In this document: positions 30,845 to 33,753 of the stretch, one piece after another
Position numbering within the stretch: the first letter of the stretch is position 1
Layout of the letters: each line of letters opens with the position of its first letter
IMG/VR virus record: IMGVR_UViG_3300047297_000133
Location: 1-33,753 of that record
Length of the DNA stretch: 33,753 nucleotides
DNA from: a virus
Direction: 5' to 3' (one strand)
Notes under the pieces: model-generated
Database searches by the model: none
What the model was told of the DNA's origin: nothing
The model's input: the letters and a program-made list of their open reading frames with translations, nothing else
Translations under genes and position numbers: made by a program

Positions 30845-30985
30845 CTATCCACCACACTCTAGGCACTGAATTAAACCTACCGAGTAATAATAGACTGCGC
30901 CAGTGCCTTGTAATTTGTAGGTGTGCTTGCATTCAGTAGGATTAGTTTCTATGCTGAATGATTTAACTTTGCTGATTAGCTTCAT
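30845..30985 (-). CDS. Small Cys/His protein after ninG
   Basis: 46 aa (starts MKLISKVKSF) with C-x-H (TECKH) near residue 19 and C-x2-C at the end (CLECGG), a possible zinc site. AGGA lies six bases before the ATG, inside the end of ninG, which it overlaps by 23 bases in another frame. No family recognised. Confidence 0.6.
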   Translation of the reverse strand: MKLISKVKSFSIETNPTECKHTYKLQGTGAVYYYSVGLIQCLECGG

Positions 30986-31544
30986 TCAATTCCTTCAACT
31001 TCTTTGTGTATAGCGCATAAACATTTTTGTAGTCATCAAGTCGATAATTTGGCATTTCGTGTACACCTTCCAGCCATAAAACCTTTTCTTGTCCGTAAAT
31101 CTCAACTAATGCTGACCTGTACGCAATCAAATTACCACTTAGATGCACGTTGCAATAGCTTGAACATTGCTTGTGGCAATTAAACTCATTAAATCGCAAT
31201 GCAGAACTTCGTCCAACCGGTACATAATGGCCTGCATCATACTTAACCGTTTTTGTTGTCTGACAACTTATGCATGGCTTCATTTCATCACGCTTACGAA
31301 TGTACTCGTTAAATTTCTGTTGAGCTTTCTTCATCCAGAATGATTTATCTTTGTCGTTAGCTTCTCGCTTCATCTTACGCGTTACTTCGTTGTATTCTTT
31401 GATTGCTTTGGTCTTCCTAACCTTTACCACTGCCTTACCATAATCTAAAGCGCATGCCATGCCACAGACCAAAATCAGACTGTTAGCTGGTTTAAACAGC
31501 TCTTTGCATGACTTGCAGCGCTTTTGCTTGATGGGTTTAATCAT
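30963..31544 (-). CDS. ninG: NinG-like recombination endonuclease
   Basis: 193 aa. N-terminal zinc site C10-x2-C13 and C27-x3-C31, a basic helical linker (KKAQQKFNEYIRKRD), then CISC (91-94) and an HNH-like part with DAGHYVPVGRSSALRF, CHKQC and LSGN. This is the typical layout of phage NinG/Rap, which processes Holliday-type junctions. AGGA precedes the ATG. It is in the expected place, after NinB. Confidence 0.85.
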   Translation of the reverse strand: MIKPIKQKRCKSCKELFKPANSLILVCGMACALDYGKAVVKVRKTKAIKEYNEVTRKMKREANDKDKSFWMKKAQQKFNEYIRKRDEMKPCISCQTTKTVKYDAGHYVPVGRSSALRFNEFNCHKQCSSYCNVHLSGNLIAYRSALVEIYGQEKVLWLEGVHEMPNYRLDDYKNVYALYTKKLKELNEANQQS

Positions 31545-31714: not shown

Positions 31715-32161
31715 CTATTGTTGTGCTTGTTTGTATGATTCATATTCTTTAAGTGCTTTCTCGCTCCAAGGTACGCCATGCAATGAGCCGAATGCGTATG
31801 TAATCTCGATCAACTCGCTAAACTCTCGCACTTTCATCTCGCTAGTGCTGCGCCCAAATACAAAAAATCCATTGCCGTTTGCGTTAGGTACTATTTCAGA
31901 CTCGCCCATCTCGCTGCTTAGAAATTCTTTCCAGAATCTTGGACACCGCTTTTTTCCATACCACTCTAAGTGCAAACTAATATCCGTCCACAATGGCCAG
32001 CCTTTTTTATTCTGCGCAATAGTTCGCTTTTCTTCGTAGCGTTCAATAGTTATCTGTACCGCACCACCTTCTAGCCCTTTGTTTACAAGGTTAAATACCC
32101 ATTCTAAAATGGATTTAAGTTGAATTGTTCCGTCGATTATCTTTATATGTTGATTTGCCAT
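31715..32161 (-). CDS. ninB: NinB-like recombination protein
   Basis: 148 aa with the NinB pattern: ITIERYEEKRTIAQNKKGW, then LHLEWYGKKRCPRFWKEFL, then STSEMKVREFSELIEITYAFG. NinB is a ssDNA-binding recombination mediator of the lambda nin region. The ribosome site is weak (AAGG at 12 bases), and an AT-only stretch lies upstream. Normal length for the family. Confidence 0.85.
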   Translation of the reverse strand: MANQHIKIIDGTIQLKSILEWVFNLVNKGLEGGAVQITIERYEEKRTIAQNKKGWPLWTDISLHLEWYGKKRCPRFWKEFLSSEMGESEIVPNANGNGFFVFGRSTSEMKVREFSELIEITYAFGSLHGVPWSEKALKEYESYKQAQQ

Positions 32162-32630: not shown

Positions 32631-32773
32631 CAATAAACCCTCATTACTTTTGCACCCAAAGACTTTCTGCATTCTTTTAGCGCCTGTATTGCGTCGATCA
32701 GATCAATTGCTATCATCGTTCCGCCTTTTCCATTAACGCAGTAGAAATGCCATGCACGCTTAATTTCTATCAT
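32630..32773 (-). CDS. Hypothetical 47-aa protein
   Basis: Starts in an ATGA overlap with the P-like gene, with GGAG about eight bases upstream, and ends in a TGATG overlap. The sequence is MIEIKRAWHFYCVNGKGG then a helix with AIDLIDAIQALKE. No family recognised; coupling at both ends supports translation. Confidence 0.6.
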   Translation of the reverse strand: MIEIKRAWHFYCVNGKGGTMIAIDLIDAIQALKECRKSLGAKVMRVY

Positions 32774-33327
32774 TTCAATCTCTCCAGTTTAGCCAAATCA
32801 TCAAGCTCGGCCTGTGTTAGTTGTTTTGGCTGTTCTGGCTCTTCGAACATTGCCAGCAGTCTTGAAGCCTCTTTTCTGCCCAGCTCAATTCGTTTTTCTT
32901 TCTCTTCGGGCGATTCAACTGGAATAGGTAAAAATAACTGATGCGCTCTATCGCGTTTAACAGCCTCATCCATCAACGCTAAAATTGCGGGGATATTTGG
33001 CTCACGAAAGATTTTATTTTCTCTCTCCGGCGAAATGGCGAGGCTTGCAAGCATCTTCAAAGCCACGTCTATCTGATCGCGTGAAAACTTTCCAATTTGC
33101 TTTGCATATTCACGCTTGGCGAAATCAGCTTCTTTCAAGCTTGGGTAAACCAGATAAAACGCACCCGCATACAGAACAACAAGTTTTGCAAACAAGTACC
33201 CAGTCACATCTCGCTCGTGATCACTAAAAGTTTGTTGCTTTTGAGTAGTCTGTGAGTCCGTCGAAGAGTTCCGCCCGTTGCTCACCGTAAGATTTTTTAC
33301 CAGTTGATCCAATTCCACTTTTTGCAT
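32770..33327 (-). CDS. Replication protein P-like helicase loader
   Basis: 185 aa. The core (LFAKLVVLYAGAFYLVY, LKEADFAKREYAKQIGKF, SRDQIDVALKMLAS, EPNIPAILALM) has the pattern of lambda P-family loaders. GAGAGG lies six bases before the ATG. The gene overlaps the O-like gene by 104 bases in another frame. It would recruit host DnaB to the origin bound by the O-like protein. The N-terminal 40 residues are polar and variable. Confidence 0.65.
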   Translation of the reverse strand: MQKVELDQLVKNLTVSNGRNSSTDSQTTQKQQTFSDHERDVTGYLFAKLVVLYAGAFYLVYPSLKEADFAKREYAKQIGKFSRDQIDVALKMLASLAISPERENKIFREPNIPAILALMDEAVKRDRAHQLFLPIPVESPEEKEKRIELGRKEASRLLAMFEEPEQPKQLTQAELDDLAKLERLK

Positions 33328-33753
33328 TTTCTGCCTCTCGTCTTATCCAGTTACGCCAAGTTGCTAACCAATTTTGCTTTGTTGCGTCTTTTCCGCTTTT
33401 AGCAATCCAGTAATCTTTGAACTTGTGCGCTATTTGTTTCAGTCTTGGGCGAAGATCAATATTTAATTCATTGCAAATTAGTACGGCGGCATCCCAGTAT
33501 TCTTGGGTGGGTTCCCAGTCTTCTTGTAATCGAGTAGATTTTTTAACAGGTTTAACAATTTCTTTCGATGGAGCCGCTTGCGGCGTAATAAGCTCTTTAC
33601 TAGTTTCTAGTTCATAGTTATTAGTTTCTAGTTCATAGTTATTAGTTTCTAGTTCATAGTTATTAGTTAATAGTTTATAGTTATTAGTTAATAGTTTATA
33701 GTTAGCTTTCGATGTGGTTTCTTCTGGGTTAGCTAAAATAACCACCTTGGTTT
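33224..33753 (-). CDS. DnaT/O-like replication protein, cut by the window edge
   Basis: Open across the right edge; the visible C-terminal part has the DnaT-like ssDNA-binding pattern DWEPTQEYWDAA, then LRPRLKQIAHKFKDYW, then WLATWRNWIRREAE. Before it is a low-complexity Asn/Tyr/Glu/Leu/Thr heptapeptide region encoded by the 33601-33705 repeat. The DNA-binding N-terminus lies outside. The gene order O-like then P-like matches lambda-type replication modules. Confidence 0.7.
   Translation of the reverse strand, partial: TKVVILANPEETTSKANYKLLTNNYKLLTNNYELETNNYELETNNYELETSKELITPQAAPSKEIVKPVKKSTRLQEDWEPTQEYWDAAVLICNELNIDLRPRLKQIAHKFKDYWIAKSGKDATKQNWLATWRNWIRREAENAKSGIGSTGKKSYGEQRAELFDGLTDYSKATNF
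33601..33705. repeat. Tandem 21-bp repeats made of fifteen 7-bp TAGTTNN units
   Basis: Three identical 21-bp units (33601-33663; TAGTTTC-TAGTTCA-TAGTTAT) are followed by two variant units (33664-33705; TAGTTAA-TAGTTTA-TAGTTAT or -TAG). Every seventh base restarts TAGTT, fifteen times without a break. The array lies inside the O-like gene, the position of lambda-type origin iterons, and encodes a heptapeptide-repeat stretch. Confidence 0.85.

Follow-up and report, generated by a model that had tools for sequence, protein, structure and literature searches.

A 7-bp repeat array within a phage initiator gene as a candidate part of a bipartite intragenic replication origin

The window analyzed here, a whole virus record of 33,753 bases, carries within its last 155 bases an array of 15 perfect TAGTT units at exact 7-bp steps (positions 33601-33703 of the plus strand; to 33705 with the last spacer). 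Comparison of related sequences indicates that this array appears to be a conserved DNA element inside a replication initiator gene, with the DNA pattern rather than the encoded peptide being preserved. In the coding direction, the array follows half-sites arranged on an 11-bp grid in the linker of the encoded protein, and it is probably one half of a theta-type origin located inside the gene of its own initiator, where the half-sites would be bound, the heptamers opened or occupied, and the helicase brought in. That the structure as a whole is an origin seems likelier than any particular division of roles between its two parts; for the division in which the half-sites are the specific part and the heptamers one form of the unwinding or loading part, we see about even odds.

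The preliminary description of this DNA reported an exact 7-bp TAGTTNN repeat inside a replication gene, and the repeat is indeed there, with 13 overlapping three-unit matches in the window versus 0 expected from 100 dinucleotide shuffles. Tandem Repeats Finder assigns the array a score of 104 for period 7 and a score of 167 for period 21 (95% matches). Because the 7-bp step brings TAG into every frame of the plus strand within 21 bp, only the minus strand is open; on that strand, the array reads AACTANN and encodes the heptapeptides TNNYELE and TNNYKLL inside an ORF at 33224-33751 (minus strand). This ORF is a 5'-truncated initiator gene, cut by the contig end, such that the window covers the array-bearing linker and the C-terminal domain, the N-terminal domain being located beyond it.

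In Pfam, the C-terminal domain (residues 74-143 of the window protein P0001; 33323-33532, minus strand) shows a weak, below cut-off similarity to PF17948 (DnaT-like; E-value 0.012), and the protein matches the PHROGs 'primosomal protein' and 'replication initiation protein'. The label 'O-like' that had been given to this gene stands as an analogy, no sequence homology to lambda O having been detected for the window protein and none of the PHROGs matched being named O-like (the C-terminus of one relative, L027, does match an O-like PHROG). The domain is 65-70% identical in L003 and L004, which are of the DUF1376 type, and in L163 (from the same contig as L002), which has an N-terminal domain of another type. 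DUF1376 is present in relatives with which the window shares the linker or the C-terminus (L003 matches PF07120 with an E-value of 4.8e-16); L002 and L163, with the same C-terminus, lack it. A PF07120 search of the window and 14 control genomes gave 0 matches, the N-terminal half of the window gene being located beyond the contig end. The putative membership of the window gene in the DUF1376 type is suggested by the linker, in which the 50 bases upstream of the array are 86% identical to those of L073, and by the C-terminal similarity; its missing N-terminal part would then be expected to contain DUF1376 and an NGKxGGRPK motif. By gene order, the 185-aa ORF that overlaps the end of the initiator gene (32770-33327, minus strand) occupies the position of a helicase loader. 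Neither Pfam nor PHROGs gave a family match for this ORF, and it shows no similarity to the neighbor proteins of Shewanella phage X14 or Thalassomonas phage BA3; ORFs that resemble it by eye come after the initiator in L002-L004. Homologs of NinG and NinB (30963-31544 and 31715-32161, respectively) are encoded in the same direction after the initiator, an order known from early operons of the lambda type.

When viral contigs were scanned for five TAGTTNN units, 59 stretches were retrieved. For 9 of them, the array is situated well within an ORF of 200 aa or more, and each of these ORFs is an initiator-type gene whose N-terminal part is DUF1376-like, the C-terminal parts being varied (L041 matches PF07120 below the cut-off only, and L040, L047 and L051 were assigned by eye, as near-copies of others). 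Most of the 59 stretches are plain one-heptamer repeats outside long ORFs (e.g., in L012, L013, L023, L037 and L045; TAGTTAG, TAGTTTT, TAGTTGT and others, up to 17 units), some of them at contig ends, with mostly uniform spacers, unlike the intragenic arrays. Two Vibrio phages matched by DNA similarity have AACCANN where the window has AACTANN, and a coding-strand linker array of the form AACYANN is present in most of the DUF1376-type phage initiator genes examined. A period-7 score of at least 12 was obtained for 65 of 80 initiators versus 5 of 311 other ORFs from the same loci, and for 138 of 148 held-out genes. Among 11 further named phages, 10 possess a 7-bp array, XC1 being the exception; other heptamer cores in the named phages are ACCCA-like in 234P9 and of the CCAG type in Rb1.

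The strongest self-match period in the range of 4-30 bp is 7 in 75, 11 in 18 and 21 in 6 of the 108 genes analyzed, a set that includes the truncated window gene and a few poor representatives of DUF1376 (L152, L154, L162). Thus, the 21-bp higher-order period that had been pointed out for the window is prominent in its 15 units but not in most relatives, for which the plain 7-bp period is the best description. The preliminary description also called for a check of copy number in relatives: among 81 representatives, arrays usually consist of 4-8 units, with a mode of 5 (27 genes), the 15 units of the window being the largest number and 9 the next; a phage added later has 10, the highest count outside the window. 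In intact relatives, the array starts at about nucleotide 344-430 of the gene, between the modeled domains, and the next gene in many of them is annotated as a helicase, primase/helicase, helicase loader, ATPase or replication protein P. In 63 relatives, the array shows an AT excess of 13.6 percentage points; no separate AT-rich tract was detected beside it in these relatives, the flanking 30-bp bins being within about 4 points of the locus mean, and the array itself may take the place of such a tract. GC skew was considered as an origin marker and gave a mixed result in three circular genomes, with a clean agreement in one: the skew minimum lies 57 bp from the array in one genome and 601 bp in another, where it falls at a change of gene direction, and the third shows no agreement. 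The 57-bp case is AbP2 (L257), in which the cumulative minimum at 42264 is located within a run of genes of the same direction.

Several tests distinguish constraint on the DNA from constraint on the peptide. The period-7 self-match exceeds that of all 50 synonymous-codon shuffles in 88 of the 108 genes. In the 55 of 81 genes where the repeat is detected at the protein level, asparagine codons split AAC:AAT as 70:1 in the core, 1:31 in the spacer and 557:429 outside the repeats, and proline in the core is encoded by CCA in 54 of 56 cases. Across 80 pairs of related genes, which are not independent, and with array detection allowing at most one core mismatch per unit, divergence is 0.9% (18/2085) in the 5-bp core, 24.6% (205/834) in the spacer and 17.3% (1243/7200) in the 90-bp upstream flank, with the core quiet at all three codon positions. 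Between Vibrio phage 1.183.O (L064) and Thalassomonas phage BA3 (L155), for instance, the core is identical at all 35 positions and the spacer differs at 9 of 14, the flank being 96% identical. The earlier suggestion that DNA and protein constraints coincide in the repeat is contradicted by these codon and substitution patterns, in which the core stays the same as DNA and the peptide changes.

For the 72 genes that have four or more units, the 110 bp upstream of the array contain a total of 138 AACCC sites, compared to 54.2 in shuffled sequences. Counted from the first heptamer, AACCC is found at -16, -27, -38, -49, -60 and -70 in 17, 23, 13, 24, 6 and 5 of these genes, respectively, versus 2.9, 12.0, 5.0, 4.9, 2.9 and 1.6 in the shuffles. 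The upstream period of 11 (score 9.16 vs 4.34) is accompanied by a period of 22, and no other period is as clear. The site is often completed to a 13-bp palindrome, e.g., AACCCAGTCGGTT at -49, the position at which the AACCnnnnnGGTT palindrome most often starts (13 genes, counting that of the window). In the window, the 13-bp palindrome AACCAAGGTGGTT starts at -49 (33740-33752), and half-sites AACCC at -27 (33726-33730) and AACCA at -16 (33715-33719) occupy grid positions, all on the minus strand. This layout, in which an AACYANN array comes after 11-bp-grid half-sites in the linker, is defined in the present analysis rather than taken from the literature. Other phages have other half-sites at the same place, namely those of the GCACG, TTCAAC/AACGG, TGCGAACGC, CAGATC and ATGCAT types. 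Palindromes were also considered as a general feature; a blind search found them moderately above shuffles (with arms of at least 5, in 35 of 72 genes versus a shuffle mean of 21.6 and maximum of 29; with arms of at least 6, in 17 of 72 versus 5.8 and 9), the 11-bp grid being the clearer signal. In Vibrio phage 1.183.O, an annotated 'CRISPR spacer 1' (L064 3096-3125; MG592549.1 27814-27843) overlies the AACCCAGTCGGTT half-site region upstream of the heptamers.

The type of half-site tracks a short basic motif at residues ~95-110 of the protein, behind the winged helix. With sites counted solely downstream of the motif codons, and with motif and site classes drawn up after inspection of this first set, 80 of 91 genes could be classified and 0 were discordant: GGR-type motifs go with AACC (58 genes), AGKASA with TTCAAC (10), EREA with GCAC (3), and xRW with TGCGAAC (5), CAGATC (2) or ATGCAT (2). 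When mapped onto a tree built from the 86 residues before the motif, the classes require 8 changes versus 21.4 with shuffled labels; the clearest switch places L078 (GGR/AACC) beside L123 (RW/CAGATC) with support of 100/95. For the held-out set, 240 loci were fetched; after exclusion of 20 without a usable gene, 17 that overlapped the first set and 55 redundant ones, 148 remained. Among them, 96 were classifiable (48 of the other 52 had none of the four motifs and 4 had no site call), and 89 of the 96 were concordant, the 7 discordant genes being counted as such even when, as in several of them, the expected site is present as well. The held-out loci were fetched by class-specific queries, and the contrast with permutations (mean 40.7, maximum 55) is inflated by relatedness. 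Because motif and half-sites adjoin in the gene, recombination that moves both as one cassette could account for their association in place of direct recognition. Nor is the heptamer core wholly constant: most classes have AACCA, AACTA or AAACA, and in the RW/TGCGAAC class ACACA or ACCCA is frequent.

YdaU of the Escherichia coli Rac prophage, also a DUF1376 protein, resembles the phage initiators in having an AGKAS-class motif and, just downstream, four TTCAA-type half-sites followed by AT-rich DNA (a count of 4 was reached in 0 of 300 shuffles, using a TTCAA pattern widened from that of the covariation test); it differs in the absence of a heptamer array. The heptamers are therefore not obligatory, and the combination seen in YdaU suggests that the half-sites are the specific element and the heptamers one form of unwinding or loading element. 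The idea that the repeat is a candidate origin is indirectly supported insofar as a conserved DNA element in the middle of an initiator gene is what an intragenic origin would look like, but the heptamers are probably not the whole of it.

A second initiator family shows a comparable arrangement. In L002, the C-terminal domain of the window protein is located behind another winged-helix N-terminal part. The linkers of 51 representatives of this type contain 7-bp units with the core CTGATTC (period-7 score 11.74 vs 4.43), ahead of which there is a 10-bp period (7.25 vs 4.07). In L163-L242, the 10-bp repeats (AATCGCGAT-like) at about nucleotide 330-415 of the gene are ahead of the CTGATTC heptamers, and in L002, a 51-bp stretch of the region encoding the DNA-binding domain (1780-1830) is repeated with 80% identity at 1957-2007. 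Thus, a block at the helical pitch and a 7-bp block both recur with different sequences, and the domain swap seen in L002 and L163 implies that the heptamer goes with the type of N-terminal part and not with the C-terminal domain. Vibrio phage 1.211.A, with a C-terminal part like that of 1.183.O and another N-terminal part, has 15-bp repeats instead; the repeat, GATAAGAGTAGAGTA, is found at the same place in the linker (L162, about nucleotide 420-470 of the gene) and is possibly a further type of origin. A broader proposition, which we offer with somewhat less than even confidence, is that two sequence-distinct families of winged-helix phage initiators share one intragenic origin grammar, in which half-sites spaced 10-11 bp would confer specificity and the following 7-bp units with a strand-asymmetric core would serve for loading. 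Under this proposition, a short basic motif behind the winged helix, itself exchangeable, would determine origin identity, and sequence alone would thus reveal the specificity of uncharacterized initiators, including E. coli YdaU.

The structural model of L003, of the DUF1376 type, contains confident winged-helix-like helices and strands up to residue 76, a long helix at 78-115, a low-confidence linker and then a helical C-terminal part; the model of the L002 type is similar, with the low-confidence linker at 127-178. Foldseek searches with both models detected no solved-structure match at E-values of 0.001 or lower. The top match for the L002-type model is 4pt7, titled 'Structure of initiator', with a non-significant E-value of 0.054; we take this entry to be pSK41 RepA. 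For the DUF1376 model, VIA-align lists winged-helix proteins with a middling best Z-score of 6.8, and these predicted fold matches may reflect merely a common arrangement. A search of solved structures by sequence detected nothing relevant.

In the tentative model that we propose, the initiator, with its predicted winged-helix DUF1376-type domain and the basic motif in which the next helix ends, would bind the upstream half-sites, which are spaced about one helical turn apart. A nucleoprotein complex would form and then open, or polymerize along, the adjacent AT-richer heptamer track, each 7 bp being engaged by one protomer or contact. Delivery of the helicase would fall to the variable C-terminal domain, DnaT-like in the window, and the product of the downstream gene. 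The binding by the protein, the assignment of its domains to the DNA elements and the unwinding role of the heptamers are, like the identity of the structure as an origin, what we infer from this arrangement.

Other readings of the array deserve consideration. The heptamers could be double-stranded iterons that the initiator recognizes first, with an unusually short 7-bp pitch, the upstream repeats being secondary. The very strict preservation of the core speaks for this possibility, as do the change of the core with the N-terminal type (AACYA in DUF1376, CTGATTC in the L002 type) rather than with the C-terminal domain and its shift to ACACA or ACCCA in the TGCGAAC half-site class. We nevertheless regard it as unlikely because the class covariation is with the upstream half-sites, which YdaU keeps without heptamers, the array is at the place of the AT-rich tract of lambda, and a step of 7 bp, shorter than a helical turn, would put neighboring subunits on different faces of the DNA. 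Less probable still is a conserved DNA-binding array that serves something other than an origin, for example autoregulation of the replication operon, recombination, packaging or the binding of a host factor. The location of the elements in the early operon near regulators in several relatives is compatible with such a role; the position between the initiator domains, the adjoining loader or helicase genes and the parallels with lambda (PMC7466680), SPP1 oriL in gene 38 (PMC6316719) and the pSK41 origin within rep (PMC5703833), as far as the consulted sections of these sources describe them, argue against it.

The least credible of the alternatives, to which we assign a very low probability, is that the array is a minisatellite made by slippage in a tolerant linker and devoid of a DNA function, or is kept for its peptide. 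The linker is predicted to be disordered or is modeled with low confidence, the 15 units of the window in their 21-bp blocks resemble recent in-frame duplications, and many plain TAGTT heptamer arrays occur in viral contigs outside long ORFs. Neither version predicts the difference between core and spacer at all codon positions, codon choice follows the phase of the heptamer and not the amino acid, and the arrays are concentrated in initiators; the slippage or peptide-level explanation was accordingly rejected on the codon test and the core/spacer divergence.

Intragenic origins as such are established, according to the consulted sections of the respective papers, for lambda (PMC7466680), SPP1 oriL (PMC6316719) and pSK41 (PMC5703833). 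The lambda origin within gene O, as described in those sections, resembles the proposed origin in its repeats midway through the initiator gene, in its palindromic sites, which are spaced by about two turns and precede AT-rich DNA, and in the presence of gene P downstream (PMC7466680). In our analysis, the lambda iterons map to nucleotides 349-433 of the O gene, and the next 30 bp are 77% AT. The two differ in that the four iterons of lambda are 18 bp long and its AT-rich tract is separate, as opposed to the 11-bp-grid half-sites and AT-richer 7-bp array of the window type, and in that the lambda O gene has no comparable 7-bp array (the best period-7 score is 9, over a 16-bp stretch). The heptamers are perhaps not the main specificity element, the half-sites upstream being those that covary with the motif. 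In pSK41, which belongs to the RepA_N initiators, a winged-helix N-terminal domain is likewise combined with an origin in the dispensable central linker of rep, and in pPR9, the N-terminal domain together with the origin forms an exchangeable module; the family and hosts are different, and the sections consulted mention no 7-bp array (PMC5703833). The SPP1 oriL in gene 38 resembles the proposed origin in its direct repeats and AT-rich unwinding element inside an initiator gene and in the involvement of loader and helicase proteins, going by the portion of the account consulted (PMC6316719).

What is already known closest to the present case is the proposal, in the consulted part of PMC10888812, that the origin of the Obolenskvirus phages Brutus and Scipio, relatives of the phages analyzed here, is formed by direct repeats, nine to about twenty bp long, midway through the replication gene; that part describes no 7-bp/11-bp layout, codon test, family-wide conservation or covariation with a motif. 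Within Obolenskvirus, five AACCA heptamers are present at this place in AbP2, and XC1 differs in lacking a clear 7-bp array. A DUF1376 protein has been noted in the AP22-like cluster of Acinetobacter phages, with no mention of an origin in the excerpt consulted (PMC5795418), and a study of an oriJ plasmid, oriJ being the Rac origin, appears as an entry in the reference list of PMC11014345. In the open-licence PMC papers that were searched, subscription papers being outside this scope, nothing was found on a 7-bp/11-bp origin layout or on DUF1376 as an initiator.

If the proposed origin is real, DUF1376, currently of 'unknown function' and present in phages of many hosts and in the E. coli Rac prophage, would be a replication initiator that reads its own gene. 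There would also be a sequence rule for locating origins in many uncharacterized phages, a testable recognition code from motif to half-site, and a natural case of a coding region in which DNA constraint overrides the protein sequence. For the question of how initiator subunits are arranged on DNA during opening, the 7-bp pitch is of relevance. Some arrays have 8-bp steps or no clear 7-bp period; L090 and L101, in which 8-bp-step arrays (AACCATAG) take the place of 7-bp ones at nucleotides 359-402 of the gene, are variants that would test the importance of the pitch.
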